From Martelella mediterranea (GTDB lineage: Bacteria > Pseudomonadota > Alphaproteobacteria > Rhizobiales > Rhizobiaceae): 64,000 nt of DNA. Shown here one piece after another: positions 31,990 through 47,516 of this stretch. Both the position numbers and the translations under genes were made by a program. The stretch is from NCBI GenBank assembly GCA_003001975.1, contig PVUG01000003.1, forward strand, positions 310,001-374,000. Reading direction: 5' to 3'. The notes beneath the pieces are model-generated. The model was not told the origin of the DNA and searched no databases. It saw only the letters and a list, made by a program, of their open reading frames with translations. Each line of letters opens with the position of its first letter. Positions within the stretch are counted from its first letter, which is position 1.

Positions 31990-32026
31990 GGAAAGACCTT
32001 TCTTCTGTCGTGTTATGGATGACAAG

Positions 32027-32426: not shown

Positions 32427-33161
32427 TCAGCCGCGGTAATCCGAGCCCAGCCCTTCGATCGACCGCAGATGCGCATCCCATTCCAGGGCCAGATCGCCAT
32501 CTTCCTCGTTCATCTGCACGTACTGGCCGTGGACCCGCGCCGCGATCTCGTCATCGACCAGACGCAGCGGACGGCCGGTCGAGGTGGCCGCCACCTGGAT
32601 CTCGCAGGCCCGCTCCAGATAGAACATGTTGTTGAACATCTCCGCGGCCGAGCGTCCCGTCGCGATCAAGCCGTGGTTGCGCAGAACCAGAACTGGATGG
32701 GTGCCGAAGTCTTCGACGATGCGTTCACGCTCCTCCAGGTCCAGGGCGATCCCCTCAAAGTCATGATAGGCGATGCGGTTGTGAAACTGCAGCGAGATCT
32801 GGTTGAGCGGCATGAGCCCCTCTTCCATGCAGGAGACCGCAACGCCCGCGCGGGTGTGGGTATGCATGATCCAGGCCGCGTCGTGCCGATTCATATGCAC
32901 GGCGGAGTGAATGGTAAAACCGGCCGGGTTTACCCGATGCGGGCTGCCGTCCACCTTGTTGCCGTTCACATCGATCTTCACCAGCGAGGAAGCGGTGATC
33001 TCTTCCCATCGCCAGCCGTAGGGGTTGATCAGAAAATGCCCGTCCTCGCCCGGTACACGGGCGGTGATGTGGGTGTAGATCAGATCGGTGAAGCGATGCA
33101 GCGCCGCCAGGCGATAGCAAGCGGCCAACTCTTCGCGCATCTTCTGCTCTTCGGGGGACAT
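32427..33161 (-). CDS. Class II aldolase/adducin-fold protein (carnitine cluster, distal end)
   Basis: 244-aa protein of the L-fuculose-phosphate aldolase/RhaD fold. The zinc histidines are seen as MHTHTRAGVA (HxH) and the VLRNHGLIATG loop that supplies the third His; LQFHNRIAYHDFEG is typical of the adducin-like group. The normal acid/base Glu position (before the HTHT strand) has no obvious Glu, so aldol cleavage is not certain. It is the last gene of the run, 15 bp behind the carnitine dehydrogenase. No such enzyme is required in the known carnitine route, so its job is unknown. Confidence 0.85.
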   Translation of the reverse strand: MSPEEQKMREELAACYRLAALHRFTDLIYTHITARVPGEDGHFLINPYGWRWEEITASSLVKIDVNGNKVDGSPHRVNPAGFTIHSAVHMNRHDAAWIMHTHTRAGVAVSCMEEGLMPLNQISLQFHNRIAYHDFEGIALDLEERERIVEDFGTHPVLVLRNHGLIATGRSAAEMFNNMFYLERACEIQVAATSTGRPLRLVDDEIAARVHGQYVQMNEEDGDLALEWDAHLRSIEGLGSDYRG

Positions 33162-33176
33162 GGTGTTCTCCTATGG

Positions 33177-34610
33177 TCAGTTGCGTTGGCCGACGGCGCC
33201 GCCGGCACCGGGGGCTTCCCGGTCGGCATGCGCCTCGGCCAGAGATTCCAGCGCCTGCGCCACAGCAGGCTCCGGCGGACAGGCCCGGCGGGAGGTCAGA
33301 TCGGTATGCAAAAGCAGGGTTTCGAGAGTGGCCGCAAGAGTACCGTCCTCTTTCAGCACCCTGTGAAAAAGTTTCATCTTCTTGCCTGCGCCGTCCAGCA
33401 CCTGGGTGGTGACCGTCAACACGGCGCCCCGGTGCACCTCATCGAGGTAGCGGATACGGGTGTCGACGGTGAAGTAGCTCTTTCCGCTGGCCACATAGTC
33501 GGCATCGGCCCCCACGCACTGCATCAACCCGTCGGTGGCCCAAGTCCCCAGTTCCAGGTAGGCGGCTTCATTCATGTGACCGTTATAGTCGGTCCAGGTG
33601 ACGGGCACCGCGCGGCGCAAGGTCACGGGCAGACTGTCGACTTCCCCGCCCGCTGCCAGGGTTTCCTCGTGCGACAGGATCATGCCGCCGGCCCCGCTGC
33701 CGGTGCGGCGCAGGCTACGCATTATGGCGACGAGGTTGTCGTCGCGCAGCCGTTCCAGTTCACGGATCGACAGATGCCCCGATTGCGCGTCCGACTGTTC
33801 GCTGATCTTTGCGATCAGATCGTCATCCAGCTCGGGCACGTTCATCAGCTTGGTCCAGGGCCATTTCAGCGAGGGGCCGAACTGCGCCAGGAAATTGGCA
33901 TAGCCCGTTTCACCGCCGGCGATACGGTAGGTCTCGAAAATACCCATCTGCGCCCAGCGAAGGCCGAACGACATGCGGATGGATTCGTCGATCTCCGCTG
34001 TGGTGGCAATGCCGTCCTTCAGCATCCACAGCGCCTCCCGCCAGACGGCCTCCTGAAAGCGATTGCCGATGAAGGCATCGATTTCCGTTTTCAGAACGAG
34101 GGGATACATACCGATTTTGGTGACCACCGGCAGGGCTTTCCCGCGCAGTGCTTCCTCGCCGGAAATCTCGACCAGCGGCAGAAGATAGACCGGATTGAAC
34201 GGATGCACGACCACCACCGGCGCACCCTCGGACGCCAGATCGGAAGCCTTGAATCCGGAGGTGGAAGAGGCGATAAAGCCGCCTTCGGGCAGATGTTCGG
34301 CGATCTCCGCATAAACCTTTTGCTTCAGTTCCAGCCTTTCGGACACGCTTTCCTGAACCCAGTCGGCCCCCGTCACAGCCTCGGACAGGGTCTCGCAGAA
34401 GGTTAACGTACCCTCGGGCGGCAGGGGCCGGTCATAGAGCGCGGGCACAGAAGCGCGGGCATTGTCCAGCACCGCGCCGATCTTGCGCGCGGCCTCAGGG
34501 TCGGGGTCGAACACCGCTACGTCCCAGCCGTTCAGCAGGAAGCGGGCTGCCCAGCCGCCCCCGATGACGCCACCGCCGATGATGGCGGCCTTGTTCGCCG
34601 CCGGGCTCAT
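33177..34610 (-). CDS. lcdH: L-carnitine dehydrogenase fused to a hotdog thioesterase
   Basis: 477 aa. Residues 1-320 form a 3-hydroxyacyl-CoA-dehydrogenase-like L-carnitine dehydrogenase: Rossmann IIGGGVIGGGWAARFLLNGW, catalytic H136 in VVHPFNPVYLLPLVEI and the C-terminal helical dimer domain. It oxidises L-carnitine to 3-dehydrocarnitine with NAD. Residues about 325-455 form a 4HBT hotdog domain with VTWTDYNGHMNEAAYLELG (D341), the place of betainyl-CoA thioesterase CdhC. The fusion joins the first and last steps around the BKACE enzyme, which is the gene just upstream (ATGA overlap). A basic, proline-rich tail follows. Confidence 0.92.
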   Translation of the reverse strand: MSPAANKAAIIGGGVIGGGWAARFLLNGWDVAVFDPDPEAARKIGAVLDNARASVPALYDRPLPPEGTLTFCETLSEAVTGADWVQESVSERLELKQKVYAEIAEHLPEGGFIASSTSGFKASDLASEGAPVVVVHPFNPVYLLPLVEISGEEALRGKALPVVTKIGMYPLVLKTEIDAFIGNRFQEAVWREALWMLKDGIATTAEIDESIRMSFGLRWAQMGIFETYRIAGGETGYANFLAQFGPSLKWPWTKLMNVPELDDDLIAKISEQSDAQSGHLSIRELERLRDDNLVAIMRSLRRTGSGAGGMILSHEETLAAGGEVDSLPVTLRRAVPVTWTDYNGHMNEAAYLELGTWATDGLMQCVGADADYVASGKSYFTVDTRIRYLDEVHRGAVLTVTTQVLDGAGKKMKLFHRVLKEDGTLAATLETLLLHTDLTSRRACPPEPAVAQALESLAEAHADREAPGAGGAVGQRN

Positions 34611-35527
34611 GTCGTCACCGGCATTTCGCGCTTCACCAGGCCCAACTGGTCGCGCACCTCCTGCGGGCCCATCGGCGCAGCACCCAGGTTGTTCAGGATC
34701 GTCACGGCCTTCTCGACCAGTTGCGCGTTGGTCGCCATGACGCCGCGTTCAAGGTAGAGGTTGTCTTCAAGCCCTACGCGAACATTGCCGCCAGCAAGTG
34801 CGGCCGCGGCGACATAAGGCATTTCATCCCGGCCGAGACTGAAGGCCGACCAGGTCCATCCGGCAGGCACATTGTTGACCATCGCCATGAAGGTATTCAG
34901 ATCGTTGGGCGCACCCCAGGGGATTCCCATGCACAGCTGCACCAGCGCCGGGCTTTCCAGCACACCTTCCTTCACAAGCTGGCTGGCAAACAACAGATGC
35001 CCGGTGTCGAAGGCCTCGATCTCGGGCTTCACACCCAGCTCGGTCATCATCCGGCCCATGGCGCGCAGCATGTTGGTGGTGTTGGTCATGACGTAATCGC
35101 CGTCACCGAAGTTCATCGACCCGCAATCGAGCGTGCAGATCTCCGGCAGGCAGTCGCGGATATGCGCCATGCGGTCGGTCGCGCCGATCATGTCGGTTTC
35201 CGCGTCCACCAGCGTCAATGGCGTTTCCGGCTCGCCCAGCGTCAGGTCCCCCCCGGTCCCGGCGGTGAGGTTCAGCACCACGTCCACGTCGGACGATCGA
35301 ATCCGGTCCGTCACCTCACGGAAAAGCGCCCGGTCGCGACAGGGCGTGCCGGTTTCAGGGTCGCGCACGTGGCAATGCACGATCGCCGCGCCGGCCCTGG
35401 CCGCGTCAATGGCGGCCTCGGCGATCTCGGCAGGCGAGCGGGGCACAAGGCGGCTCTTGTCCTGCGTGGCCCCCGCACCGGTGATGGCGGCGGTGATGAA
35501 AGGCTTGCGGTTCATCTGCAAAGGCAT
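34607..35527 (-). CDS. cdhB: 3-dehydrocarnitine:acetyl-CoA cleavage enzyme (BKACE/DUF849)
   Basis: 306-aa TIM-barrel beta-keto acid cleavage enzyme. The zinc ligands H51 and H53 lie in AAIVHCHVRDPETG; the CTLDCGSMNFG and EAFDTGHLLFASQLV strands and the GGNVRVGLEDNLYLERG end are typical. In the carnitine route CdhB converts 3-dehydrocarnitine plus acetyl-CoA into acetoacetate and betainyl-CoA. ATG 35527, with GGGAG 6 nt upstream, is chosen over a longer open frame that overlaps CaiD. The overlap with the dehydrogenase-thioesterase fits one functional unit. Confidence 0.92.
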   Translation of the reverse strand: MPLQMNRKPFITAAITGAGATQDKSRLVPRSPAEIAEAAIDAARAGAAIVHCHVRDPETGTPCRDRALFREVTDRIRSSDVDVVLNLTAGTGGDLTLGEPETPLTLVDAETDMIGATDRMAHIRDCLPEICTLDCGSMNFGDGDYVMTNTTNMLRAMGRMMTELGVKPEIEAFDTGHLLFASQLVKEGVLESPALVQLCMGIPWGAPNDLNTFMAMVNNVPAGWTWSAFSLGRDEMPYVAAAALAGGNVRVGLEDNLYLERGVMATNAQLVEKAVTILNNLGAAPMGPQEVRDQLGLVKREMPVTT

Positions 35528-35540
35528 CGTCGTCTCCCTG

Positions 35541-36323
35541 TTACCGGCCTCTCCAGACCGGGTCGCGTTTTTCGGCGAAGGCGCGGGCGCCTTCCTTCTG
35601 GTCCTCCGACCGATACAACCGCTCGACCGTTTCGAACTGGCTGCCATTGATCCGGTTCAGGGCGTCCTGGAACTTCATGTCCTCGGCCTCGCGAACGACT
35701 TCCTTGATGGCCGCGAACACCAGCGGCGGGCCCGAAGCCAGTTCGTCTGCCATCTGACGCGCCTGGATCATCAGATCGGCCGCCGGGACCACCCGGTTCA
35801 CCAGGCCCCAGCGATGAGCTTCCTCGACATCGAACCAGCGTCCGGTCAACAGCAACTCCATCGCGATATGATAGGGGATGCGCTTCGGCAGCTTGATCGT
35901 GGCGGCATCGGCAACGGTACCCGACCGGATTTCCGGCAAGGCGAAACTGGCGTGGTCGGCGGCCAGGATGATGTCGGCGGCAATCGCCAGCTCCAGCCCG
36001 CCCCCGCAGGCAATACCGTTGACGGCGGCGATAACGGGCTTGTTCAGCCCCCGCAGCTCCTGCAGGCCGCCAAAGCCGCCCGGCCCGTAATCGGCATCCG
36101 CCGCTTCTCCTGCGGCCGCCGCCTTCAGGTCCCAGCCCGGGCAGAAGAACTTCTGCCCCTGGCCTGTGATGATGGCGACCCGCAGCTCCGGATCGTCGCG
36201 GAAAGTGGTGAAAATCTCACCCAGTTCGCGCGAGGTTGCCATGTCGATGGCATTGGCCTTGGGGCGGTTCAGCGTGACTTCCAGGACCGCGCCACGGCGT
36301 TCGGTCAAAACGTTGTCGGTCAT
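35541..36323 (-). CDS. caiD: Carnitinyl-CoA dehydratase / crotonobetainyl-CoA hydratase
   Basis: 260-aa crotonase. The similarity to E. coli CaiD is strong throughout (LTLNRPKANAID-type start, FRDDPELRVAIITGQGQKFF, GWDLKAAAAGEAADADYGPG, end FAEKRDPVWRGR). Both proposed catalytic residues are kept at the same numbers, E111 in GGGLELA and E131 in FALPEIRSG. It reversibly hydrates crotonobetainyl-CoA to carnitinyl-CoA, which links a CoA-dependent branch to the carnitine dehydrogenase branch. Its ATG overlaps the CoA ligase stop (ATGA), and it lies 13 bp before cdhB. Confidence 0.92.
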   Translation of the reverse strand: MTDNVLTERRGAVLEVTLNRPKANAIDMATSRELGEIFTTFRDDPELRVAIITGQGQKFFCPGWDLKAAAAGEAADADYGPGGFGGLQELRGLNKPVIAAVNGIACGGGLELAIAADIILAADHASFALPEIRSGTVADAATIKLPKRIPYHIAMELLLTGRWFDVEEAHRWGLVNRVVPAADLMIQARQMADELASGPPLVFAAIKEVVREAEDMKFQDALNRINGSQFETVERLYRSEDQKEGARAFAEKRDPVWRGR

Positions 36324-38371
36324 TCTTCCATCCTGATAAGAGCATCAGCTGCCACGGCGCTGTCGGCACGGCAGATCAGCGGGTTGATTTCGATCTCGTG
36401 CAGGGAACCTGCGTGGTCCTGCACCAGTGTCTGTAGGGCCATGACCGTGTCAATCACGGCCTCGATGTCGGCCGCCGGGCGCCCTCTGTAGCCCGCCAGA
36501 AGCGGCGCGGTGCGCAGGCTGTCCAGCGCCGCACGCACCTCGTCGCGCGAGGCGGGAATGAGGACGGAGGCGGTGTCGCGGATCAACTCCGTCAGAATGC
36601 CGCCCAGGCCAAGCGTCAGCACAAAACCATGGGCGGGATCGCGGGTGACCCCCAGGATCAGCTCGGCAAGGGCGCCAGTGATCATCTGCTCGACCAGAAA
36701 GCTATCGGCGGGCATGGCCCCCGCCGCATCGGCAACCGCCGCCGCATCGGCAAGGTTCAGCACCACGGCGCCAGCTTCCGTCTTGTGCGCGATCCCCTCG
36801 CCCTTCAAAACGACCGGGAAACCGATCCGCGCGGCAGAGCTGGCAGCGTCGGCGGCGGTTGCGGCGCGTGCCGCACCCGGCACGCGCACCCCGACGCGCG
36901 ACAGCAGTGCCTTGGCCTCAGCCTCGGAAAAGACGCGCGCCACGCCCTGCCCGTTTCGCGGCAGCGTCACCGGCGCGGGGCGGGTGTTGGCGCCCCCCTT
37001 GCGCCCTGACTGCGCCGCGGCCCGGATCGCTTTCAATGCATCACCCATACCGCAAAGGGGCACGATGCCCATGGCCAGTGCGCGCTGCGCGACCGCCTCT
37101 GACAGTCCTTCCGACATCAGCGATACCAGCGCCATCGGCGTCCCCGTAGCCGCGCGCGTCGCCGCGACGGCGCGCATGACCTGATCGTAATCGGGCGCGT
37201 CGAAGCGTTCATCGCACGGGTAATCCACCACGACACAGCCCATCCCGAGATCCGCCTCAGCGCCGCAGAGCGCGGTGAAGGTGGCAGTCAGCGCCTCTTC
37301 GTCACCCCAGATATAGGTGTTGTAATCCAACGGATTGGCCAGCGCGACCTTGGGGCCGAGCACGGCCCGCAGGCCCGTCCGCTGGGTTTCGATCAGAGAG
37401 GGATAGCTGATCCCGGCCCCCTCGCCCATGTCGGCCATCAGCGAGGCCTCTCCGCCCGAACAGGAGGCCGAGGCGATCCGGGTCGAGACGAGACCGCCGG
37501 TCACATGCAGGATTTTCAGCGTCTCGACCAGTTCGGTCGGCGTGTCGACCTGCGCGATGCCCAGGCGCTTCAACAGCGCCACAGCGCCCGCATTGCTGCC
37601 CGTCAGCGAGGCGGTGTGCGACACCGCCGCGGCCTGCGCCTGTTTCGAGGTGCCCACGCGCAACGCCACGATGGGCTTGCCCAGTTCTGTCGCCCGTGCT
37701 GCCAGCGCCTCGAAGGCCGGCAGATCGCTGATGCCTTCGATATGCAGACCAAGCGCGGTGATGCGCGGATCTTCCAGCAGCGCGATCCCGAGGTCTGACA
37801 TCGAGGTTTGCGCCTGGTTCCCGGCCGCCACCACGGCGGCCAGCGGCAGGCCGCGGCGCTGCATGGTCAGGTTGATCAGCACATTGGACGACTGACCGAT
37901 CACGGCAACGCCACTCTCGACCCGGTTCATCCCGTGCCGGTCGGGCCAGAGCGCCACGCCGTCCAGCGCGTTGACGATGCCGTAGCAATTCGGCCCCAGC
38001 ACGCGCATATCGCCTGCCGCCTCGACCAGTTTCGCCTGAATCTCGGCCCCGTCGGAGAGTTCCGACACCGCTTCGCTGAAACCGGCTGCAAAGCAGACCG
38101 CCCCGGCGCAATCCATGTCCGAAAGCGCGCCGGCGACTTCTACTGTCAGCTCACGGTTGACGCCGATGAAGGCCGCATCGGGCACGCCCGGCAGCGCATC
38201 AAGGCTGGCGTAAGCGGGCAGCCCGCCGACCTCCGCTTTCTTCGGGTGCACGGGCCAGATCGGCCCGGCAAAGCCGGTGGCGCGGCACTGGCGCACCACT
38301 GCCTCGCACCAGGTGCCGCCGCCGATCACGGCGATGGCTCTGGGGTGCAGGAAACGGCTCAACGGCTCCAT
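36320..38371 (-). CDS. Acyl-CoA synthetase, ADP-forming (probable betaine-acid:CoA ligase)
   Basis: 683-aa fused alpha-beta NDP-forming ligase. The CoA-binding Rossmann domain starts FLHPRAIAVIGGGTW; the phosphorylated His is in VSHTASLTGSNAG; the ATP-grasp domain begins FSEAEAKALLSRVGVRVPGA and holds FPVVLKGEGIAHKTEAGAVV and the EINPLI end. It probably activates gamma-butyrobetaine, crotonobetaine or carnitine as the CoA ester. Known cai clusters use CaiC (AMP-forming) and CaiB (transferase), neither of which is in the window, so this would be a non-homologous stand-in (inference). Confidence 0.88.
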   Translation of the reverse strand: MEPLSRFLHPRAIAVIGGGTWCEAVVRQCRATGFAGPIWPVHPKKAEVGGLPAYASLDALPGVPDAAFIGVNRELTVEVAGALSDMDCAGAVCFAAGFSEAVSELSDGAEIQAKLVEAAGDMRVLGPNCYGIVNALDGVALWPDRHGMNRVESGVAVIGQSSNVLINLTMQRRGLPLAAVVAAGNQAQTSMSDLGIALLEDPRITALGLHIEGISDLPAFEALAARATELGKPIVALRVGTSKQAQAAAVSHTASLTGSNAGAVALLKRLGIAQVDTPTELVETLKILHVTGGLVSTRIASASCSGGEASLMADMGEGAGISYPSLIETQRTGLRAVLGPKVALANPLDYNTYIWGDEEALTATFTALCGAEADLGMGCVVVDYPCDERFDAPDYDQVMRAVAATRAATGTPMALVSLMSEGLSEAVAQRALAMGIVPLCGMGDALKAIRAAAQSGRKGGANTRPAPVTLPRNGQGVARVFSEAEAKALLSRVGVRVPGAARAATAADAASSAARIGFPVVLKGEGIAHKTEAGAVVLNLADAAAVADAAGAMPADSFLVEQMITGALAELILGVTRDPAHGFVLTLGLGGILTELIRDTASVLIPASRDEVRAALDSLRTAPLLAGYRGRPAADIEAVIDTVMALQTLVQDHAGSLHEIEINPLICRADSAVAADALIRMEE

Positions 38372-38374
38372 CGG

Positions 38375-39535
38375 TCAGGCTCCCAGCGGCCGGAAGAGTT
38401 CGCGGCTGATGATGTGCCGCTGGATTTCCGAAGTGCCGTCCCAGATGCGTTCGACTCGCGCATCCCGCCAGAAGCGTTCGATGGGCAGCTCGTCCATCAG
38501 GCCCATGCCCCCATGAATCTGCAGGGCCGCGTCGGTCACGCGGGCCAGCATTTCCGATGCATAGACCTTGGCCGAGGCGATCTCGCGGTTGGCAGGCAGG
38601 TTCTGATCCAGGCGCCAGGCGGCGGCCAGGGTCAGCCAGTCAGCGGCATCGATCTCGGTGATCATGTCCGCGATCTGGAAGCCGACGCCCTGAAACTTGC
38701 CGATCGGCTGGCCAAACTGCTTGCGTTCTGCCGCGTAGGACAGCGCGTGGTCGAAGACCCGGCGCGCCCGGCCGACCGAGTTGGTGGCAACCGTGATCCG
38801 CGTGGCATAAAGCCATTCGTTCATCACGTCGAAACCACCACCGACCTCGCCCAGCACCTGCGCGTCCGACAGGCGGCAATTATCGAAGTAGAGGAGCGAG
38901 TTCAGGTAACCGCGGTGCGAGACGGAGTTGTACCCCCGCGCGATCTCGAATCCCGGCGTGCCGCGATCCACAAGGAAGCAGGTGATCTGCTTCTTCGGAC
39001 CGCGGGGCGTTTCATCGACGCCGGTAGCAACAAAAACAATCACGAAATCGGCATGCTCCGCGCCGGAGATGAAGTGCTTTGAGCCGTTCACCACCCAGTC
39101 ACCGCCATCCCGCACGGCGGTGCATTTCATGCCGCGCACGTCAGAGCCGGCATCGGGTTCGGTCATCGCCAGTGCATCCATCTTCTCCCCGCGCACGGCG
39201 GGCATCAGGTATTTCTCGACCTGCTCGCCCTCGCAGGCCATCAGAATATTCTGAGGCCGCCCGAAGAAGTGGGTCAGCGCCATGGAGCCGCGCCCCAGTT
39301 CGCGTTCCACCAGCGCGAAATCGACATGGGACAAGCCGGGGCCGCCCACGCTTTCCGGGAAGTTCGAGGCGTAAAAGCCCAGGTCGAGGCATTTCTGCTT
39401 GATCTCCTGGCCGATCTCGGCGGGCACTTCGCCCAGGCGCTCGATCTCGGCCTCGTGGGGATAGATCTCGTTCTCGACGAAGTTGCGGACGGTGGAGACG
39501 ATCATCTCCTGTTCTTCGGTCAGTCCAAAGTGCAT
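38375..39535 (-). CDS. Acyl-CoA dehydrogenase (CaiA-like, gamma-butyrobetainyl-CoA type)
   Basis: 386-aa flavoprotein. MHFGLTEEQEMIVSTVRNFV opens the family N-domain; AMTEPDAGSDVRG is the FAD/substrate strand; RKQFGQPIGKFQGVGFQIAD and QIHGGMGLMDELPIERFWRD complete the fold. ATG 39535 follows AAGG; an open frame further upstream encodes no family sequence. The place of the catalytic Glu in the YEGT motif reads WDGT, so the base would be D366. Between CaiD and the transporter, it probably interconverts gamma-butyrobetainyl-CoA and crotonobetainyl-CoA. Confidence 0.9.
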   Translation of the reverse strand: MHFGLTEEQEMIVSTVRNFVENEIYPHEAEIERLGEVPAEIGQEIKQKCLDLGFYASNFPESVGGPGLSHVDFALVERELGRGSMALTHFFGRPQNILMACEGEQVEKYLMPAVRGEKMDALAMTEPDAGSDVRGMKCTAVRDGGDWVVNGSKHFISGAEHADFVIVFVATGVDETPRGPKKQITCFLVDRGTPGFEIARGYNSVSHRGYLNSLLYFDNCRLSDAQVLGEVGGGFDVMNEWLYATRITVATNSVGRARRVFDHALSYAAERKQFGQPIGKFQGVGFQIADMITEIDAADWLTLAAAWRLDQNLPANREIASAKVYASEMLARVTDAALQIHGGMGLMDELPIERFWRDARVERIWDGTSEIQRHIISRELFRPLGA

Positions 39536-39618: not shown

Positions 39619-40431
39619 TCAGCCGGAGCGGCGCGCCTTGCGCAGCAGCAAGGCGGCACGGGCCAGCATGGCCACGGTGACGACGCAGATCAGCACGACG
39701 GACAGGGCGGCAATGGCGGGATCGACATTGTCGCGAAGGCCCATCCACATGCGGCGGGGCAGCGTGATGGTTTCCACCGAAGTGACGAACAGGGTCACGC
39801 CGATCTCGTCCCACGACAGGAGGAAACACAGGAAGAATGCGCCCAGCAGGCCGAAGCGGATGTTGGGCAGGATCACCCCGAAGATACGGGTGGCGACCGA
39901 AGCGCCCATGGATTGCGCCGCCAGGTCCATGCGCCGGTCAAGCTGCGACAGAGAGACCATGACGACAACCACAGCATAGGGAACGACCACGACCATATGC
40001 GCCAGCACCACGCCGCCCAGCTTGTCATAGGCGACCACCCCGTTCCAGCGCGACAGCGTGGTCAGGAAGAAGTAGAGCGTCAGCGAAGTTACCACGGGCG
40101 GCGCCACCATCGGCAGCAGCACGAAGCCGGTCATCAGCCCGGAAAAGCGCGGGCGCAACATCCACAGGCCGATGCAGAAGGCCGCAGCCAGGATCACCGC
40201 CAGCAGACTGGCGAGCCCCCCGACCTGGACCGAAGTCCACAGGCTGCTGCCCCAGTCGGGGTCCTGCAGCAGCGAAAGATAGTGGCGCCAGGACCAGTCA
40301 CCATCAGGCAGCGAAAGATAGCGTTTCGAGGTGAAGCTGACGGGTACGACGGCGATCAGCGGCATCAACAGGAACACCGCGACCAGGGCGGATAGAAGCG
40401 TGGCAATCACGCCGGGACGAAGTCGGGTCAT
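39619..40431 (-). CDS. ABC transporter permease, PotC type (carnitine/betaine uptake candidate)
   Basis: 270-aa inner-membrane permease with six helices, start MTRLRPGVIATLLSALVAVF at ATG 40431, overlapping the partner permease by ATGA. The EAA loop reads AAQSMGASVATRIFGVILPN. The C-terminus ends in an arginine-rich cytoplasmic tail (LLLRKARRSG). An unbroken open frame upstream, in another register of the partner gene, is not coding. Together with the PotB, PotD and PotA-like products it forms a complete importer placed directly before the acyl-CoA dehydrogenase. Confidence 0.9.
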   Translation of the reverse strand: MTRLRPGVIATLLSALVAVFLLMPLIAVVPVSFTSKRYLSLPDGDWSWRHYLSLLQDPDWGSSLWTSVQVGGLASLLAVILAAAFCIGLWMLRPRFSGLMTGFVLLPMVAPPVVTSLTLYFFLTTLSRWNGVVAYDKLGGVVLAHMVVVVPYAVVVVMVSLSQLDRRMDLAAQSMGASVATRIFGVILPNIRFGLLGAFFLCFLLSWDEIGVTLFVTSVETITLPRRMWMGLRDNVDPAIAALSVVLICVVTVAMLARAALLLRKARRSG

Positions 40432-41237
40432 TTGGCCATCTCCCCATAGCGACGCATGAGAAGGTAGAGAATCCCGCCGACCGCGATCATCAGCACCATG
40501 CTCATGGCGGCAGCGACACCCCATTGCGGGATCTGGAAGATCCAGAGGTAGATCAGTTCGGCGATCAGCACCGACTGGCCTCCGCCCAGAAGCGCGGGCG
40601 TGACGTAGAAACCGATAGAGAAGACGAATACCAGCAGCGTGGCTCCCATGATCCCGCTCGATGTCATCGGCAGGAAGATCTGCCAGAATATCCGAAGGCG
40701 AGAGGCCCCCATGCCGTCGGCCGCCGTCAGGACGCGCTCGTCCACATTGCGTATAGCCGTGGCCAGCGGGAAGACCGCGAAGGGAATGAGGTAGTGGGAC
40801 ATGCCAACGACCACGGCGAACTCGCTCCGCGTCATCTGGATAGCGCTGTCGATAACGCCGAGCTCCTGCAGCCAGGTGTTCAGCAGCCCCCGGTTCGACA
40901 GCATCGACAGCCAGCCGAAGGCGCGGCTGAGAACGGAGATCCAGAAAGGTATCATGATGCAAAGCTCGGTCAGCAACCGCACCACCGGACTGCCGCGCAC
41001 CCAAAGAAGGGTGATCACGTAAGCGCTGCTGACGGACACCACGGTGACAATCACGCAGATGCGGATCGTGCGCCAGATGACCGAGAGGGTCAGCGGATCG
41101 GTCAGAACCTGACGGTACTGGGCCAACCCCGGTTCCGGGTCGGTGAAGCTGAGCTGCATGATCCCGAGGAAGGGCAGCAGGTAACTGCACCCAAGAAACA
41201 GCAGGACGGGGCCTATGAGGACGAGCGACGCGCGCAT
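40428..41237 (-). CDS. ABC transporter permease, PotB type
   Basis: 269-aa permease: MRASLVLIGPVLLFLGCSYL first helix, PFWISVLSRAFGWLSMLSN periplasmic turn, and EAA loop AADGMGASRLRIFWQIFLPM. It is of the spermidine/putrescine/Fbp class that also moves betaines and other quaternary amines. It overlaps the next permease by ATGA and lies 58 bp behind the binding-protein gene. Confidence 0.9.
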   Translation of the reverse strand: MRASLVLIGPVLLFLGCSYLLPFLGIMQLSFTDPEPGLAQYRQVLTDPLTLSVIWRTIRICVIVTVVSVSSAYVITLLWVRGSPVVRLLTELCIMIPFWISVLSRAFGWLSMLSNRGLLNTWLQELGVIDSAIQMTRSEFAVVVGMSHYLIPFAVFPLATAIRNVDERVLTAADGMGASRLRIFWQIFLPMTSSGIMGATLLVFVFSIGFYVTPALLGGGQSVLIAELIYLWIFQIPQWGVAAAMSMVLMIAVGGILYLLMRRYGEMAK

Positions 41238-41295
41238 GAGATCTCCTTTTGAGTTCCCCCGCGCGGGGCGCGCGGAGGAAACGGCAATGGCAGGC

Positions 41296-42408
41296 TCAGG
41301 CGGAGATGATCTGCAGGTAGGCGTCTAGCGCCGCCCCGTAGTTTTCCTCGTACCAGTCCGTATCCAGCGCATGCTGTTTGGGCAGGTTTTCCGGGTCCAT
41401 CGCATTGTAGCGGCGCTGGTCCTCGGGGATCAGCGCGTCGGCGGCCGGGTTCGAGGGGCCGTTGCCCAGCATCTCGAACAGCACCACCTGGCGCTCCGGT
41501 GCCTGGGTGGCGGCGATGTATTGCATCGCGGCCTCTGTGCCGCCGGGATTGTCCTTCAGCACGCCGATGCCGCCCGGGCCGATGATTCCGTCATTCCAGA
41601 TGAAGCTGATGTCGCCCTCGGTGTCCTTGTCCAGCAGGCCTGCGCGGGTGTTCCAGATCAGCGCCATAGACACGTCGCCGTTCAGCAGCAGCGACTGGCT
41701 TTCCGCGCCGCCGCCCCAGAAGGCGCCGATGTGTTCCTTGAAGGCCCCGATCTTGGCATGCGCCCGGTCGAGGTCCAGCGGGTACAGGTCTTCAGGCGCG
41801 ACGCCGTCGGCCAGCAACGCCGCTTCCCACATACCCGCACCCCACTTGTACATGGACCGCTTGCCGGGGAATTTTTCGACGTCGAAGAAGTCCGCGATAG
41901 AGGTCGGCGGCGTGTCGAACTTCGTTGCGTCGTAGGCGATGACGTAGGAATAGAAATAACAGGAGGAGGAGTATTTCCAGCCGAAGCCCTCACGCTGCTT
42001 GGAGCGATCGACGATGCCGTAGTCGATCGGCTCCATCATGCCCTTGCGGCCAAGCGCCTGGCTGGAAAAGGGATCTGCATCCACAAGGTCCCAGGTCGGC
42101 CGACCGCTCTGCACCTGTGCGGTGATCGCGCCCTCGGTCGGGCCAGAACCATCATAGAGCACGCGGATACCGGTTTCCTCGGTGAAGGGCCGGCCGAAAG
42201 CTGCATCCATCGCGTCCAGCGCGTCACCGCCCCAGTTCACGAAGACCAGGCGGCCTTCCTGCGCATTTGCCTGTCTAGCGCCCGAACCCACGGCCGCAGT
42301 ACCCATGAGAGCGGCGAGGCCATACATCAGCTGACGGCGTGAAATCTGGCCCTTGGCGGCACGCTCCTTCAGGATCTCAACGAGGTCGTTCTGGAAATGA
42401 TTGGTCAT
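41296..42408 (-). CDS. Extracellular solute-binding protein, PotD/spermidine-putrescine type
   Basis: 370-aa periplasmic protein. Its N-terminus carries a twin-arginine-like signal further in than usual (SRRQLMYGLAALMGTAAVGS after 22 cytoplasmic residues), followed by the mature RLVFVNWGGDALDAMDAAFG, the opening strand of the family. Cleavage is probable after ANAQ. Aromatic residues in GFGWKYSSSCYFYSYVIAYD could form a cation-pi cage for a trimethylammonium group, which fits carnitine or gamma-butyrobetaine as ligand (inference). It is placed between the ATPase and permease genes. Confidence 0.88.
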   Translation of the reverse strand: MTNHFQNDLVEILKERAAKGQISRRQLMYGLAALMGTAAVGSGARQANAQEGRLVFVNWGGDALDAMDAAFGRPFTEETGIRVLYDGSGPTEGAITAQVQSGRPTWDLVDADPFSSQALGRKGMMEPIDYGIVDRSKQREGFGWKYSSSCYFYSYVIAYDATKFDTPPTSIADFFDVEKFPGKRSMYKWGAGMWEAALLADGVAPEDLYPLDLDRAHAKIGAFKEHIGAFWGGGAESQSLLLNGDVSMALIWNTRAGLLDKDTEGDISFIWNDGIIGPGGIGVLKDNPGGTEAAMQYIAATQAPERQVVLFEMLGNGPSNPAADALIPEDQRRYNAMDPENLPKQHALDTDWYEENYGAALDAYLQIISA

Positions 42409-42498
42409 TTTCTCACCTGTGGTTTCTGGATCAGTGGGACCCGGCCCCGGACCGCATTGGCGTTCCGGGTTGGGGGCTTTCGGAAATTTCGGGCGGGA

Positions 42499-43533
42499 TC
42501 AGAGGGCGAAGCTGTCGCCGGTGTCCCATGCGATGCTCAGGTCGGTGCCCGGCGCGGGCGTCGGGACCCCGGTGCCATTGTCGAGATAGAGCATCAGCTC
42601 TTCCCCGGCACGTGTCTCCAACAGCAACCGCGACTTGGAACCAAGGTAGACACTGTCGCACACCCTGGCGGGCAGCTGGTTGCCGTCGCCTTCCTCGGCC
42701 AGCCGCATGTGCTCGGGGCGGATCGCGACGTGCCGGAACGCGTCGGCGTTCGGCGGCAGGTCCAGTCGGGTGCCGGCAATGCCCCCGGCGGCGGGGTCCA
42801 GCGAAAGGATGTTGATGTCGCCCAGAAATTCCGCGGTGAAACGGTTTGCCGGGCGCTCGTAGACCTCTTCCGGGGTGCCCAGCTGTTGCATCTCGCCATG
42901 GTTGAAGATCGCGACCCGCGAGGACAGCGCCAGCGCCTCTTCCTGATCGTGGGTCACAAAGACGAAAGTGGTCCCCAGATCCCTGTGCAGGCGTCGTAGC
43001 TCCTCCTGCATCTGGCCGCGCAGGTTCTTGTCCAGCGCAGAGAAAGGCTCGTCCAGCAGCAGAACCGTGGGCTCGTAGGCTAGGGCGCGCGCCAGGGCGA
43101 CACGCTGCTGCTGCCCCCCCGAAAGAGCGCGCGGCCTCTTGTTCTCATGGCCGGAGAGGCCGACCATATCGATCATCTGTGCAACGCGGTCCGCGATCTG
43201 CGCCTTGCCGCGCTTCTGTACCTTCAGCGGGAAGGCGATATTCTCGGCCACTGTCAGATGCGGGAACAGTGCATATCCCTGGAAAACCATGCCGAAGCCG
43301 CGCTGGTTCGCGGACCAGCCGGTCATGTCCTGTCCCTCCAGCAGCAACGCACCCGAGGTCACATCCTCATAGCCGCCCAGAAGGGTCAGGAAGGTCGTCT
43401 TGCCGGACCCCGATGGTCCCAGCAGGGAGAGGAACTCGCCCTCGGCAATTTCCAGGGAAATGTCACGCAAGGCATGAAACTTCCCGAACTTCTTTCCGAC
43501 CGAACGTGCTTCGATCTGCGTTGTGCTGGCCAC
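42499..43533 (-). CDS. ABC transporter ATPase, PotA type
   Basis: 344-aa ATPase with Walker [10 protein letters not shown], signature [15 protein letters not shown], Walker B VLLLDEP, switch His VFVTHDQ and a C-terminal TOBE_2 regulatory domain ([20 protein letters not shown]). The start is GTG 43533, preceded by AGAGGGG at a 5-nt spacing; an ATG further upstream has no site. It is the first transporter gene, 102 bp downstream of the LysR gene, and probably begins the transport-catabolism transcript. Confidence 0.9.
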
Positions 43534-43635: not shown

Positions 43636-44544
43636 TCACGACTTCTCATTTGGACGAATACGGCTCACTTCCAGTCGTGTTTTCAACCAGTTATGAAATT
43701 CAAGCACAATCTGATTTTCGAGATTTTCTTCGGGCGTACAGAGGAAATATCCTGTATCGGAGTGCAGGGAACGGGCAAATGGACGCATCAACCGTCCCTC
43801 CCGCAGGTCCTTTCTCCACAGGACCGTGTCCCCGATCGCGATTCCCTCGCCCGCCATCACCGCCGTATGGACAATGTTCATGTCCGAGTAGCAGATGCCC
43901 CGCTGGGCATTTTCCGGCGGCAGGCCCGACAGGCGCATCCAGTTTTCCCAGTCGGTGAAATCGCTCATGTGCAACAGGGTCGCCCCCTTCAGGAGGCTTG
44001 GATCATTATAGTTCTTGAAGCGACTGAGATAGGCCGGGCTGCAAAGCGGCGTGAATTCGACCGAAAGAAGCGGCTCGATGGCGACATGTGCGCGGCCGTC
44101 ATATCCGAAGGTGATGAAGGTATCGACCCCGGGATTGGTCGTATCGGCCAGGCCATGAGAGCTGACGACATTCAGGACCACCTCGGGGTTTTCGGCCAAG
44201 AAATCCCCCATGTTCAGACACAGCCAGGCGGCGGCGAACCCGGGCGGTGCGCTGACGGTCAACCGGCCGCTGAGCCCGTGCTGCGCCACCCGCGCGGTGG
44301 AACTGGCGATCATGTTCAGCGCGCGGCGCACGTCCTCCGCATAGGCCCGGGCCCGCGGCGTGATCTCCGTCCGGTTGCCGCTGCGTTCAAGAATCTTGAA
44401 GCCCAGGTCGCGTTCCAGCAGGCGCAACTGGTGACTGATTGCGCTGCGGGTGACATTCAACTCGGTCGCGGCACGCCAGAGCGCACCGTTGCGCGCGACG
44501 CTTTCAATGGCGCGCAAGGCCTGAATGGACGGGTAACGGTTGAT
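43636..44544 (-). CDS. LysR-family regulator with apparent non-canonical ATC start
   Basis: About 302 aa. The GcvA-like helix-turn-helix (SIQALRAIESVARNGALWRA, TELNVTRSAISHQLRLLERD) is complete only if translation starts immediately before NRYPSIQAL. A perfect GGAGG lies 6 nt ahead, but the codon there is ATC (44544-44542), not ATG/GTG/TTG. The next in-frame candidate is a TTG at L of QALRAIE, which would cut into the first helix. Upstream open frame reads through a terminator and encodes no family sequence. It lies between the BBOX unit and the ABC genes and probably senses carnitine-related ligands. Confidence 0.75.
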   Translation of the reverse strand: MNRYPSIQALRAIESVARNGALWRAATELNVTRSAISHQLRLLERDLGFKILERSGNRTEITPRARAYAEDVRRALNMIASSTARVAQHGLSGRLTVSAPPGFAAAWLCLNMGDFLAENPEVVLNVVSSHGLADTTNPGVDTFITFGYDGRAHVAIEPLLSVEFTPLCSPAYLSRFKNYNDPSLLKGATLLHMSDFTDWENWMRLSGLPPENAQRGICYSDMNIVHTAVMAGEGIAIGDTVLWRKDLREGRLMRPFARSLHSDTGYFLCTPEENLENQIVLEFHNWLKTRLEVSRIRPNEKS

Positions 44545-44568
44545 GGCGGACCTCCGGGATTGCGGGCG

Positions 44569-44607
44569 GAAAAACGAAAAGCCCCCGCTGCATATCGCAG
44601 CGAGGGC
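44569..44607 (-). terminator. Rho-independent terminator after the second class II aldolase
   Basis: On the minus strand CCCTCGCTGC, loop GATAT, GCAGCGGGGG is followed by CTTTTCGTTTTT. It lies 24 bp after the aldolase stop and upstream of the LysR start, so BBOX plus aldolase form their own transcription unit. Confidence 0.8.
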
Positions 44608-44630
44608 GCGGAATCGAGTGGCGCTGCCGT

Positions 44631-45365
44631 CTACAGCACCGGAAGCTGCGATTTCAGATAGGCGAAATGCCTGTCGGCCATACCCGCATAAGCCCCCCAA
44701 CCGTCCGCGGTATTTTGCGCCACGGCATCCGACAGGACAGCAAGCGACTGCCCGGAGGAACGCGCCAGGATCAACGTCCGGGCCGCCTTTTCGAAGAAGT
44801 AGAGATCCTCGAAGGCCGCCGCGACAGTCTCGCCGACGATGGTGACGCCGTGATTGCCCATGACCAGCACCGTCTTGCCGCCCAGGCATTCCGCCAGCCG
44901 TTCGCCCTCTTCCTCGGCATCGGCGATGCCGCCGAAGTCGAAGTCATAGGCCGTGCGCCCGTAAAAGCGTGCCGTGTTGTTGTCGATGGGCACCACTGTC
45001 GGGTCCTTCAGACAGGCAAGCGCCGTGGCGTAGGGCGAATGGGCATGCAAGACCACCTTCGCCTCCGGCTTCTTGCGATGCAGCGTGCCATGGACGCACC
45101 AGGCCGATGCGTCGGGCCTCCCCTGCCCCTCGATCACGCGACCGTCGCGGGCGTCGATACGCAACAGGTCCTCGGGACGGATCGTGGCGAAGTGCTGCCA
45201 GCAGGCGTTCAACAGGAACTCGGCCCCGTCGTCGGATACGGCAGCGCTGAAATGGTTGCCCACGGATTCGCTCCAGCCCATTTGGTGGCAGATCCGGAAG
45301 GCGGCGGACAGATCCCGCCGCAACACGGCAGGATCGAGGGTTTCGGAATGGACGGGCGCGTTCAT
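44631..45365 (-). CDS. Class II aldolase/adducin-fold protein coupled to BBOX
   Basis: 244 aa from ATG 45365, overlapping the BBOX stop by ATGA. Metal histidines are in VVLHAHSPYATALA (HxH) and VMGNHGVTIVG; the first part MGWSESVGNHFSAAVSDDGA is the phosphate/substrate loop of the fold. It is distinct in sequence from the other class II protein at 32427. Close coupling to a dioxygenase suggests that it acts on the hydroxylated product or prevents a side product. Its reaction is not known; some members of the fold are epimerases, decarboxylases or dehydratases. Confidence 0.85.
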   Translation of the reverse strand: MNAPVHSETLDPAVLRRDLSAAFRICHQMGWSESVGNHFSAAVSDDGAEFLLNACWQHFATIRPEDLLRIDARDGRVIEGQGRPDASAWCVHGTLHRKKPEAKVVLHAHSPYATALACLKDPTVVPIDNNTARFYGRTAYDFDFGGIADAEEEGERLAECLGGKTVLVMGNHGVTIVGETVAAAFEDLYFFEKAARTLILARSSGQSLAVLSDAVAQNTADGWGAYAGMADRHFAYLKSQLPVL

Positions 45366-46501
45366 GCCTTGAACCGTCCTTCGCTGACCAGCGCCCGGTA
45401 GGTCGAGCGCATCTCGGCCCGGTCCACATAGGTCCCGCGCAGGTAGCGGTCGCCGCTTTCGGCGGTGTAGGCAGCCCGGCCATGCACGATGCGGTGGTTG
45501 TCGAACACCATGCATTCGCCGGCCTTCATCAGGAAGGTCATCATGTACTGCTCTTCCTGCAGCATTTTCCCGAAGCGGCAGAAAGCCGGGTAGTAATCAT
45601 CCAGCAGCGCCTGATCCAGATCGAGAAAATCCAGCATGTGCTGGCTGATCGTCAGACCCGACACTTCGCCGTGCTGATCCAGTTCGATCACCGTTTGGCG
45701 CGAGCGCATGTCGTAGGTGTCATGTTCGCAGAAGAAGGGCACCGGCGTTTCCGACAGGAGCCTGAACCCTTCCGGGTCACGATGGCGAAAGGCGTTGGCC
45801 ACGGCCACCCCGTCGGCATAGAGGCTTTCGCCTCCGTCCACCGTGTTGGCCCGGCAATGCAGGAACTGGACGCCGGGGGCGTTTTCTTCGGCCGGCGTGT
45901 CGGTATGCAGTTCCAGCGCGGCGGCGGTATAGGCGGTATTGGTCGGGTTGATATGGGTCTTCACGTCGAAATAGTCGCCGAAGAAGGTGGGCCGGATCTT
46001 GCCCAGCAGTTCCGCCGTCTCGGTCAGTCCCGCATCGCTGTCGGGCATGTCGGTGATGATGGTGAAGCCCTCGACCAGAAGCGCCTCGATCCACCTGGCG
46101 CGGGTGGCCGGATCGGCCATCAGCTCGGGCTGGCTGAACCGGGGCACATCCGGATAGTGATCGCCATACCAGGCTTCCCGCGGCAGGTCCGCCGGATCGG
46201 GGCGCGGGCCGGCGGCACCATAGGTTTCCAGCCAGGCGAGCGGAAAACGGGTCACATGATCCTCACCCGCCCAGACGATCTCCAGCGTGTCGCCGGTCAC
46301 CTCAGCGCTGGCCGCGACAGACGCAGCATCGAGGTGGAAGATGTCGAAACTGCGTTCGCGCGTGGCGCTGCTAAACGAGGTCGGGCAGTTGTCGCGCAGC
46401 CAGTAATAATTGAAGTAGTGCGGCTTGCCGTCCGACAGGACGATCTCCAGCCCCTTGTCCTTCAGAACCGGGTTGGAAACAGGGGGTGTCATCAGGTTCA
46501 T
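45362..46501 (-). CDS. Gamma-butyrobetaine dioxygenase-like Fe(II)/2-oxoglutarate oxygenase
   Basis: 379 aa from ATG 46501 with GAG upstream. The N-terminal GBBH-like domain has YFNYYWLRDNCPTSFSS; only the first of the cysteines that bind zinc in animal BBOX is kept. The catalytic double-stranded helix has HTD (ALELHTDTPAEEN) and the distal His in NHRIVHGRAAY, with the 2-oxoglutarate Arg probably in DRYLRGTYVD. It would hydroxylate gamma-butyrobetaine to L-carnitine, feeding the dehydrogenase; trimethyllysine dioxygenase is a close paralogue that cannot be excluded by eye. It diverges from the LysR at 46617. Confidence 0.85.
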   Translation of the reverse strand: MNLMTPPVSNPVLKDKGLEIVLSDGKPHYFNYYWLRDNCPTSFSSATRERSFDIFHLDAASVAASAEVTGDTLEIVWAGEDHVTRFPLAWLETYGAAGPRPDPADLPREAWYGDHYPDVPRFSQPELMADPATRARWIEALLVEGFTIITDMPDSDAGLTETAELLGKIRPTFFGDYFDVKTHINPTNTAYTAAALELHTDTPAEENAPGVQFLHCRANTVDGGESLYADGVAVANAFRHRDPEGFRLLSETPVPFFCEHDTYDMRSRQTVIELDQHGEVSGLTISQHMLDFLDLDQALLDDYYPAFCRFGKMLQEEQYMMTFLMKAGECMVFDNHRIVHGRAAYTAESGDRYLRGTYVDRAEMRSTYRALVSEGRFKA

Positions 46502-46600
46502 ATTATATCTCAATGCTTTGGAGGATTTTTGAGCGTTTTCTGAAAAGAAGCATCTCACGCCTTCCAAAAACGGAACAGCCGGATTATCCTGAACCTAACT

Positions 46601-46614
46601 TAACCTTGAGGTTA
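46601..46614. promoter_or_regulatory. Perfect dyad between BBOX and divergent LysR genes
   Basis: TAACCT-TG-AGGTTA covers the ribosome-binding site of the LysR gene at 46617; a further half-site AACCTAACTT lies just left of it. LysR autoregulatory sites often lie like this in divergent intergenic regions, so both genes may be controlled from here. Confidence 0.45.
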
Positions 46615-46616
46615 TC

Positions 46617-47516
46617 TTGGATCGTTTCCCTCCCCTCCGCCTTCTGACCACCTTCGAGGCCGTCGCCCGTCATGGTTCAATGCGTCTGGCGGCAGCCCGA
46701 TTGAACGTGACTCAACCGGCGGTCAGCCAGGCACTGAAGACCCTGGAGGCGCATGTGGGCGCGCCCCTGATCGACCGCGCCACGCGGCCCGCCCGGCTAA
46801 CTGCGGCCGGAGAACTGCTGGCCCGCGCGGTGCGTGACGGGCTGGGCCAGATTTCGGCCGCCCTTGAGGATATCCGCACCCTCAGCGGCCAGGATGGCGC
46901 GCAGGTCACCGTCTCCTGCACACTCGGGATGGCCACCTATTGGCTGATGCCCCGCCTGCCCGACTTTTACGCCCGTCACCCGAAGATCACGGTCAACGTT
47001 CAGGCGCCGTCCACCGATCTGCCACACCTGTCGCCCGGGATCGACATCGCCATCCGCTATGGCACCGGTAGCTGGCACGAAGGCACAACGGTCAAGCTTT
47101 TCGATGAGCGCGTCTGCCCGGTGGCGGCCCCGTCCTTGCTGGAGCAGTTGCAAGCCCAGGGGATCGATCTGGATCGCGCCCCGCTTATCCATGTGCGCAG
47201 CCCCTACAACCAGCACTGGGCCGGCTGGGAGGACTACCTCAAGGCACGCGGGATCCAGCGGTCTCGCCTGTCGGGGCAGACATTCAACAACTATGTCCAG
47301 GCGGCCCAGGCGGTGCTGGACGGGCGCGGCGTGATGCTGGGATGGCATTCCATCGCCAATGGCGCGGTCCGCGACGGCGCCCTGCGCCAATGGCCCGCCG
47401 CCGAAGTTGACCTCGGCACGGCCTACTACGTGACCGCCAGCACCCCACGCGCCCAGACCACACAGACCTTTCTCGACTGGCTACTGGAAACAGTGGCCGC
47501 CGCCGCGAGCGACTAA
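46617..47516 (+). CDS. LysR-family regulator, GcvA-like (divergent from BBOX)
   Basis: 299 aa; start TTG 46617 with GAGG 5 nt upstream, so translation may be modest. Helix-turn-helix: HGSMRLAAARLNVTQPAVSQ, then ALKTLEAHVGAPLI. The effector part contains VTVSCTLGMATYWLMPRLPD and the GcvA-type DIAIRYGTG. It is next to the BBOX gene and at the edge of the catabolic cluster, so gamma-butyrobetaine or carnitine is the probable inducer (inference). It ends 170 bp before an IS21 remnant. Confidence 0.88.
   Translation: MDRFPPLRLLTTFEAVARHGSMRLAAARLNVTQPAVSQALKTLEAHVGAPLIDRATRPARLTAAGELLARAVRDGLGQISAALEDIRTLSGQDGAQVTVSCTLGMATYWLMPRLPDFYARHPKITVNVQAPSTDLPHLSPGIDIAIRYGTGSWHEGTTVKLFDERVCPVAAPSLLEQLQAQGIDLDRAPLIHVRSPYNQHWAGWEDYLKARGIQRSRLSGQTFNNYVQAAQAVLDGRGVMLGWHSIANGAVRDGALRQWPAAEVDLGTAYYVTASTPRAQTTQTFLDWLLETVAAAASD

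Follow-up and report, generated by a model that had tools for sequence, protein, structure and literature searches.

A predicted coenzyme A-dependent carnitine operon and an adjoining gene pair for a dioxygenase of a separate clade and an aldolase-fold protein in Martelella mediterranea

A stretch of 64,000 nucleotides from Martelella mediterranea (assembly GCA_003001975.1, contig PVUG01000003.1, positions 310,001 to 374,000 of the forward strand; hereafter the window) was analyzed for a gene cluster that a preliminary description, made from the sequence alone, had read as a catabolic cluster for carnitine and gamma-butyrobetaine with two routes into carnitine, one oxygen-dependent and one dependent on coenzyme A (CoA). 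The gene reading in that description is good and the pathway reading is half right. The cluster falls into two apparent transcription units. Unit 1 makes a convincing candidate operon for CoA-dependent use of gamma-butyrobetaine and carnitine, and operons of its type are common in the host's order. Unit 2 pairs an iron and 2-oxoglutarate (2OG) dioxygenase of the BBOX (gamma-butyrobetaine dioxygenase) superfamily with AldB, a protein of the class II aldolase fold. The dioxygenase belongs to an uncharacterized clade that is regularly accompanied by AldB and is linked to carnitine breakdown, apparently without depending on it. The favored explanation, to which we assign a probability of roughly 0.55, is a horizontally exchanged catabolic island in which Unit 1 would be the carnitine route and Unit 2 a separate pair for a related quaternary-ammonium acid.

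The dioxygenase had been proposed as the second entry into carnitine. Its sequence speaks against this, with missed family cut-offs, a clade of its own, and an invariant, changed acid-binding stretch; so does its setting, with its own LysR regulator and AldB partner, a hairpin at the unit boundary, and orthologue genomes that gave no carnitine dehydrogenase match. Proteins of the minus-strand run and of the divergent gene at 46617-47516 were scored against NCBIfam and Pfam, with gene starts refined by hand. The dioxygenase missed the cut-offs for BBOX (TIGR02409; 277.3 bits, cut-off 414.75), TmpA (278 bits, cut-off 400), and trimethyllysine dioxygenase (TMLD, TIGR02410; 172.9 bits, cut-off 268.3). 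Ten relatives were scored as well. Four of them (L018, L021, L028, and L029) reached both the BBOX and the TmpA cut-offs; neither was reached by the orthologues L003 and L007 (BBOX scores of 260.8 and 283.8 bits) or by L008, L009, L011, and L012. The last four belong to a third BBOX-family group of seven rows (L008-L014), which has N-A-H at positions 292-294 of human BBOX.

At positions 290-294, by human BBOX numbering, T-x-S-Q-H was found in all 86 orthologue rows, the window included. The same positions read R-F-N-N-R in 15 bacterial rows of the BBOX/TmpA type (R-F-N-S-R in one of them). The acid end of the substrate is held by N191 and N293 in human BBOX and by N187, N287, and R288 in TmpA, according to the available part of PMC9296572. 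Among the orthologues N191 is kept (86/86), N293 is replaced by Gln (86/86), and position 294 is His (86/86), and the dioxygenase does not possess the BBOX combination of N191 and N293. Its TmpA equivalents are likewise incomplete: N187 is kept, N287 is Gln, and R288 is His. The positions that we take to be the iron ligands (202, 204, and 347, forming H-D-H) and the 2OG arginine (360) were invariant in the 86 rows, and the presumed aromatic cage was kept throughout, with F or W at 177, F at 181, Y or F at 194, and Y at 366. Because these residues are retained, the dioxygenase is likely to be a 2OG hydroxylase whose substrate is cationic and probably carries a quaternary ammonium group. Of the four residues that we take to form the BBOX zinc site, C38 was kept in 80/86 rows and H82 in 85/86, and C40 and C43 in none (0/86). 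One truncated sequence with an internal stop (L015) was left out of the residue alignment, and two rows (L003 and L093) come from the same Lutibaculum record, so that at most 85 of the 86 orthologue sequences are distinct. In a tree of 57 rows, which took 32 of the 86 orthologue rows, all 32 lay on one side of a branch with support of 100/100; long branches leave the placement of human BBOX and L030 in this tree unsure. By profile, residues, and tree, the dioxygenase is not a standard BBOX.

The gene pair was then followed across named genomes, where the best 80 of 132 confirmed relatives were kept as orthologous loci (60-92% identity), from Rhodobacterales, Rhizobium and its relatives, Novosphingobium, and others. 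The aldB gene lay directly after the dioxygenase gene in 74/80 loci and a divergent lysR2 beside it in 68/80. The surroundings of other BBOX-family genes, taken as 15 regions (L037-L051), gave no aldB match (E <= 1e-8). AldB belongs to the class II aldolase family; its relatives in the PDB include 3ocr (90 bits) and 4xxf (88 bits) as the best two, NovR (84 bits), TqaM (75 bits), and structures labelled aldolase. The histidines of its H-x-H and N-H-G motifs align with histidines of NovR, and H107, H109, and H172, presumably metal-binding, were invariant in 23 AldB rows.

Every gene named in the preliminary description was present at the coordinates given there. Both LysR genes and both class II aldolase-like genes had been omitted, and the single minus-strand run that it described, although its genes are present, is interrupted between AldB and LysR1, at 44581-44607, by a terminator-like hairpin that is conserved. 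The features of the cluster, in window coordinates, are as follows.

46617-47516, plus strand: LysR2, the divergent regulator of Unit 2 (Pfam HTH_1 and LysR_substrate).
45362-46492, minus strand: Fe/2OG dioxygenase of the BBOX superfamily (T-x-S-Q-H clade), first gene of Unit 2 (TauD, PF02668).
44631-45365, minus strand: AldB, class II aldolase-fold protein (PRK07490 family), second gene of Unit 2 (PF00596; NF005689, 337.1 bits, cut-off 260).
44581-44607, minus strand: Rho-independent terminator-like hairpin at the end of Unit 2 (stem, fold, covariation).
43636-44544, minus strand: LysR1, first gene of Unit 1, with an apparent ATC start (PF00126/PF03466).
42499-43533, minus strand: PotA-type ATP-binding cassette (ABC) importer ATPase (potA subfamily, 327.7 bits, below the cut-off of 355.6).
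41296-42408, minus strand: PotD-type solute-binding protein (SBP_bac_8, PF13416; PotD equivalog, 26 of 582 bits).
40428-41237, minus strand: PotB-type permease (family profile matches).
39619-40431, minus strand: PotC-type permease, with the start at 40431 chosen (family profile matches).
38375-39535, minus strand: acyl-CoA dehydrogenase, proposed gamma-butyrobetainyl-CoA dehydrogenase (PF00441/02770/02771).
36320-38371, minus strand: NDP-forming acyl-CoA ligase (ATP-grasp), proposed gamma-butyrobetaine:CoA ligase (PF13549/PF13607/PF13380).
35541-36323, minus strand: CaiD-like crotonase, proposed crotonobetainyl-CoA hydratase (best match NF002936, 340 bits, cut-off 500).
34607-35527, minus strand: BKACE, proposed 3-dehydrocarnitine cleavage enzyme, CdhB (PF05853, 321.7 bits, cut-off 24.8).
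33177-34610, minus strand: L-carnitine dehydrogenase-thioesterase fusion, CdhA-CdhC (PRK07531, 665.5 bits, cut-off 592).
32427-33161, minus strand: second class II aldolase-fold protein (PRK07044 family, 354 bits, cut-off 207).
30982-32025, minus strand: zinc-type MDR oxidoreductase, a flanking gene that is not claimed for the pathway (common to the Maritimibacter block described below).

The dioxygenase and AldB genes overlap by ATGA. The hairpin behind them reads GCCCTCGCTGC-loop-GCAGCGGGGGC, then TTTTCGTTTT, with a stem of 12 pairs in the window, and four further species that share the gene order have a hairpin of equal length at this site. Over these five sequences 11/11 pairs hold and four are changed on both sides, values that were reached by 0/500 shuffles, a count that is not to be read as a probability; the number of pair types was reached by 100/500 shuffles and the other covariation measures by none. 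The comparison used five of the seven full-order sequences, L055 (with a hairpin that looks shorter by eye) and L058 standing outside it. A terminator scan gave fewer sites than shuffled sequence did (7 versus a mean of 11.7), and the fold of the hairpin region was moderately stronger than that of shuffles (z -1.95); the terminator claim is made because of the covariation of this single hairpin across five sequences. Given its position between AldB and LysR1, LysR1 and the genes that follow it look like a separate operon, running from LysR1 to the gene at 32427, with the dioxygenase and AldB as the other apparent unit. Intergenic gaps of 58-102 bases in the LysR1-potA-potD-potB part of Unit 1, and of 83 bases ahead of the acyl-CoA dehydrogenase gene, may leave room for additional promoters.

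Carnitine-core genes were found in 12 of the 80 orthologue loci. About seven arrangements could be distinguished: the window order (L052-L056 and L058), that of L060 and L079, and those of L061, L062, L067, L105, and L115. L056 is a thirteenth locus beyond the 12: it is ended by its contig and has LysR1 and importer genes. Such repeated re-joining argues for a functional link between the dioxygenase-AldB pair and the carnitine genes, which is likely, and to this extent the earlier association of the dioxygenase with carnitine genes holds up. A carnitine dehydrogenase match (E <= 1e-70) was obtained in 60/80 of the orthologue genomes and none was detected in 20/80, a count that speaks against an obligatory link. 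A second sample comprised 297 genomes from the host's order, the host's own included (hereafter the order sample). Five of its genomes carried an orthologue of the dioxygenase: four had a carnitine dehydrogenase match (one of them doubtful, at 47% identity), three had the ligase pair, and one had neither. No carnitine genes lay inside the 20 kb around the dioxygenase in these five. A BBOX/TmpA-type gene close to L018 (E <= 1e-80) was also present in 3/47 orthologue genomes, the 47 being a subset of the 80 picked for spread.

For Unit 1, the CoA-dependent entry and the oxidative carnitine exit of the preliminary description found support. The carnitine dehydrogenase fusion exceeded the carnitine 3-dehydrogenase cut-off and contained both of its domains (3HCDH and 4HBT_2), and its gene overlaps that of BKACE by 4 bases. 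BKACE scored far above its Pfam family cut-off; against NCBIfam it gave four matches, none reaching its cut-off and none a dehydrocarnitine-specific model. On these profiles the predicted oxidative exit, comprising the fusion and BKACE, is solid. The crotonase, which had been labelled CaiD, has CaiD as its best family, yet like the dioxygenase labelled BBOX it missed the curated cut-off. The acyl-CoA dehydrogenase is far from CaiA, crotonobetainyl-CoA dehydrogenase (187.2 of 540 bits, below the cut-off). CaiC is an AMP-forming ligase; the CoA ligase in the window has CoA-binding, succinyl-CoA ligase-like, and ATP-grasp domains and is not of the CaiC type. The predicted CoA branch is real, but distinct from the enterobacterial cai set. 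The importer genes, which together span 39619-43533 as a PotCBDA-type set, are PotABCD-like by family, with a binding protein that is far from PotD.

In the order sample, carnitine dehydrogenase matches (E <= 1e-70) were obtained in 57/297 genomes, some covering the dehydrogenase half of the fusion only, and ligase matches (E <= 1e-120) also in 57/297. Both occurred in 42 genomes and lay within 10 kb of each other in 34/42, the host counted, and by this measure the CoA branch is an ordinary, known kind of system. The earlier statement that bacteria usually show one branch is doubtful: the ligase-dehydrogenase pair was also found in 20 of the 42 other sampled genomes having a BBOX-family gene, that is, any BBOX-family gene at E <= 1e-20 with all groups pooled and not only proven BBOX. 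On this evidence, BBOX-family and CoA-route genes within one genome are not rare.

Three further observations concern the genes and regulators of the carnitine operon. The PRK07044-family gene at 32427-33161 closes the operon, and a relative 93% identical to it lies inside the L115 cluster. LysR1 seems to start at an ATC codon (44544, minus strand) that follows a GGAGG site. At the aligned position the window, L053, L055, L056, and L058 all have ATC, L054 has ATA, and L052 has ATG. In L056 no ATG, GTG, or TTG precedes the ATC as far back as the upstream stop. It is unusual for a regulator gene to keep a rare start codon across species, as LysR1 appears to do. Finally, an AraC regulator family accompanies the carnitine genes in L060, L061, L067, L079, and L115, the L115 member having AraC HTH and DJ-1/PfpI (GATase/DJ-1-like) domains, as in CdhR. 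No CdhR-like AraC regulator was found among the window genes scanned against NCBIfam and Pfam.

The cluster also appears to have moved as a block. Positions 32427-47485 can be aligned with DNA of Maritimibacter alkaliphilus (80-83% identity), and a blastn comparison gave no further match between the window and the 46 kb of the Maritimibacter contig compared. At the protein level the match extends to the flanking gene at 30982-32025 (83% identical and adjoining the block there); the tblastx matches listed cover the window up to about 39.5 kb. Among the 80 loci, most of which end before reaching this flanking gene, it had no match (E <= 1e-20). Since the limits of the cluster approximate those of the Maritimibacter block, the cluster is taken to be a real evolutionary unit and not a chance grouping. 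No dioxygenase match (E <= 1e-60) was found in a genome of the same genus (G454), and the gene was found in 5/120 other genomes of the family at 66-74% identity, versus 92% in Maritimibacter. Maritimibacter is a rhodobacteracean and the host belongs to the Hyphomicrobiales (Rhizobiales), and horizontal transfer of the block between orders is probable.

In the mechanism proposed for the island, Unit 1 would import a carnitine-type betaine. Gamma-butyrobetaine would be converted to its CoA ester and, in a suggested order of steps, to crotonobetainyl-CoA, carnitinyl-CoA, L-carnitine, and 3-dehydrocarnitine, which after cleavage by BKACE and release by the thioesterase would give glycine betaine. 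The dioxygenase of Unit 2 would hydroxylate another quaternary-ammonium acid, related to the compounds handled by Unit 1. Its hydroxylated product would be cleaved by AldB, acting as a metal-dependent enzyme with the class II aldolase fold, and the carbon would join the same betaine pool. Unit 1 resembles the aerobic Cdh pathway of Pseudomonas, in which the cdhA/B/C products convert carnitine to glycine betaine (available part of PMC5806209), and differs from it in having the dehydrogenase and thioesterase fused and in having LysR and PotABCD-type genes instead of CdhR and CaiX. A beta-oxidation-like gamma-butyrobetaine route has been described for strain HK4, and a table in the same paper gives the HK4 activity as gamma-butyrobetaine hydroxylase (PMC2131755, available part). 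The likeness of this route to Unit 1 is one of description, with no HK4 sequence in the comparison.

The alternative that best survives takes the dioxygenase for a divergent gamma-butyrobetaine hydroxylase, which would provide an oxygen-dependent second entry to the same carnitine pool. BBOX is, with TmpA, one of its two best-scoring families, and in relation to known BBOX (TIGR02409; human BBOX1 and the Pseudomonas sp. AK1 enzyme) it shares the sequence family, the H-D-H iron site, the 2OG arginine, the cage, and N191. Carnitine-core genes adjoin it in several arrangements, as described above, and a carnitine dehydrogenase match occurs in 60/80 orthologue genomes versus 57/297 in the order sample, two sets of different taxonomic mix. 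It differs from BBOX in its score (277 versus 415 bits), the Gln at 293, the missing C40 and C43, the AldB partner, and the separate clade. It falls below the cut-off though other relatives pass, and S-Q-H stands invariantly in place of N-N-R. A second entry would leave AldB without a role, is at odds with the 20 genomes that gave no carnitine dehydrogenase match, and does not account for a dioxygenase in a separate unit with its own terminator-like hairpin. We consider this alternative unlikely, though more credible than any of those that follow.

Several points weigh against the favored reading of Unit 2. Iron ligands, 2OG arginine, and aromatics at all four cage positions are retained, and the corresponding stretch of human BBOX is itself N-F-N-N-A and not the R-F-N-N-R of bacteria, so that the site might still accept gamma-butyrobetaine; the change from N to Q at 293 is, as a substitution, conservative. 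The physical link with carnitine genes is equally expected from a second entry, and the genomes with no carnitine dehydrogenase detected include drafts and metagenome-assembled genomes, which may be incomplete, and the 1e-70 threshold may miss distant dehydrogenases. In 6/80 loci the dioxygenase stands without AldB (L071, L114, L116, L117, L120, and L121), and among the PDB relatives of AldB there is no close characterized one, NovR scoring just 84 bits.

The favored reading of Unit 2 is modelled on TmpA and TmpB, by which trimethylaminoethylphosphonate is hydroxylated and then cleaved to phosphate and glycine betaine (available part of PMC10574752). By analogy, Unit 2 would be a hydroxylate-then-cleave pair of this formal kind, acting on a carboxylate: in both systems a BBOX-family hydroxylase is encoded alongside a second enzyme, and TmpB cleaves the hydroxylated product of TmpA (same source). 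TmpA (PDB 6npb) is the best PDB sequence match of the dioxygenase, at 203 bits. The dioxygenase remains below the TmpA cut-off, with Gln and His at TmpA N287 and R288, and its partner has the class II aldolase fold, whereas TmpB is an HD-domain enzyme. In a more specific form of this reading, Unit 2 would be a carboxylate counterpart of TmpA/TmpB: the dioxygenase would hydroxylate a quaternary-ammonium acid next to its carboxylate and a CloR/NovR-like AldB would remove CO2, leaving an acid one carbon shorter. CloR and NovR bind iron on three histidines and use O2 for oxidative decarboxylation of alpha-hydroxy acids (available part of PMC13111500). AldB resembles this type of enzyme (PDB 9ryg) through its sequence relationship and aligned histidines and differs in being distant from it, and its use of iron and O2 would be hypothetical. 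We regard this specific chemistry as rather improbable. If it were true, the steps could, for example, run from delta-valerobetaine to gamma-butyrobetaine or from beta-alanine betaine to glycine betaine, and the pair would constitute a new two-enzyme alpha-oxidation of betaines supplying the carnitine and betaine pathways.

More doubtful still is a beta-keto route, in which a beta-hydroxy acid made in Unit 2 would be oxidized by a dehydrogenase to a beta-keto acid and AldB would decarboxylate it non-oxidatively, as in tetronate breakdown; where carnitine genes are not adjacent, the oxidation would fall to an enzyme of the 3-hydroxyisobutyrate-dehydrogenase type. A gene of this type lay within 10 kb of the pair in 20/80 loci; in L124, for example, it immediately follows aldB. 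Genes like those for betaine aldehyde dehydrogenase, choline dehydrogenase, and galactonate dehydratase (enolase superfamily) lay within the same distance in 14/80, 10/80, and 9/80 loci, respectively. These counts come from a separate listing, as the gene clusters included shadow frames; each family was named from a single member (the 3-hydroxyisobutyrate-dehydrogenase type from two), and many of the loci are close relatives. The L064 member scored against L-threonate dehydrogenase (133.6 bits, cut-off 350) and AldB against 3-oxo-tetronate 4-phosphate decarboxylase (42.9 bits, cut-off 250), both scores lying far under their cut-offs, and the pair in the window has no adjoining 3-hydroxyisobutyrate-type dehydrogenase.

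It is very unlikely that the pair merely travels with carnitine genes while serving an unrelated compound: no carnitine-core gene lies in 68/80 loci within the DNA taken, some flanks being short, but the two gene sets are joined in several different arrangements, and a similar gene list occurs in an Arctic SAR11 island (PMC12421898, available part). Two other candidates were set aside. Bacterial carnitine synthesis by trimethyllysine dioxygenase and an aldolase is disfavored by the TMLD score, which is below those for BBOX and TmpA, and by the chemistry, since cleavage of a beta-hydroxy-alpha-amino acid would not be expected of a class II aldolase lacking pyridoxal phosphate. A betaine-lipid headgroup (DGTS, DGTA) as substrate had been prompted by a SAR11 glycerophosphodiesterase, in the part of the source available, and a 3-hydroxyisobutyrate-type dehydrogenase, and the window offers nothing that bears on it.

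Dioxygenases of this kind are easily labelled gamma-butyrobetaine dioxygenase and taken for makers of carnitine or betaine, as happened in the preliminary description. The Arctic SAR11 glycine-betaine island contains carnitine dehydrogenase, BKACE, thioesterase, class II aldolase, and two BBOX-labelled genes; CoA ligase and acyl-CoA dehydrogenase are not in its gene list (PMC12421898, available part), and the likeness is one of gene lists, not of sequences. Its BBOX-labelled genes beside a class II aldolase have been read in print as making carnitine or betaine (same source; sequences not compared). For "class II aldolase" with "gamma-butyrobetaine dioxygenase", this paper was the only one among the matches listed, in a search whose scope was literature outside subscription. 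The T-x-S-Q-H signature separates the dioxygenase clade from true BBOX candidates. The clade, with its regular partner and changed acid-binding stretch, points to an undescribed step of quaternary-amine breakdown in Rhodobacterales, Hyphomicrobiales, and Sphingomonadales.

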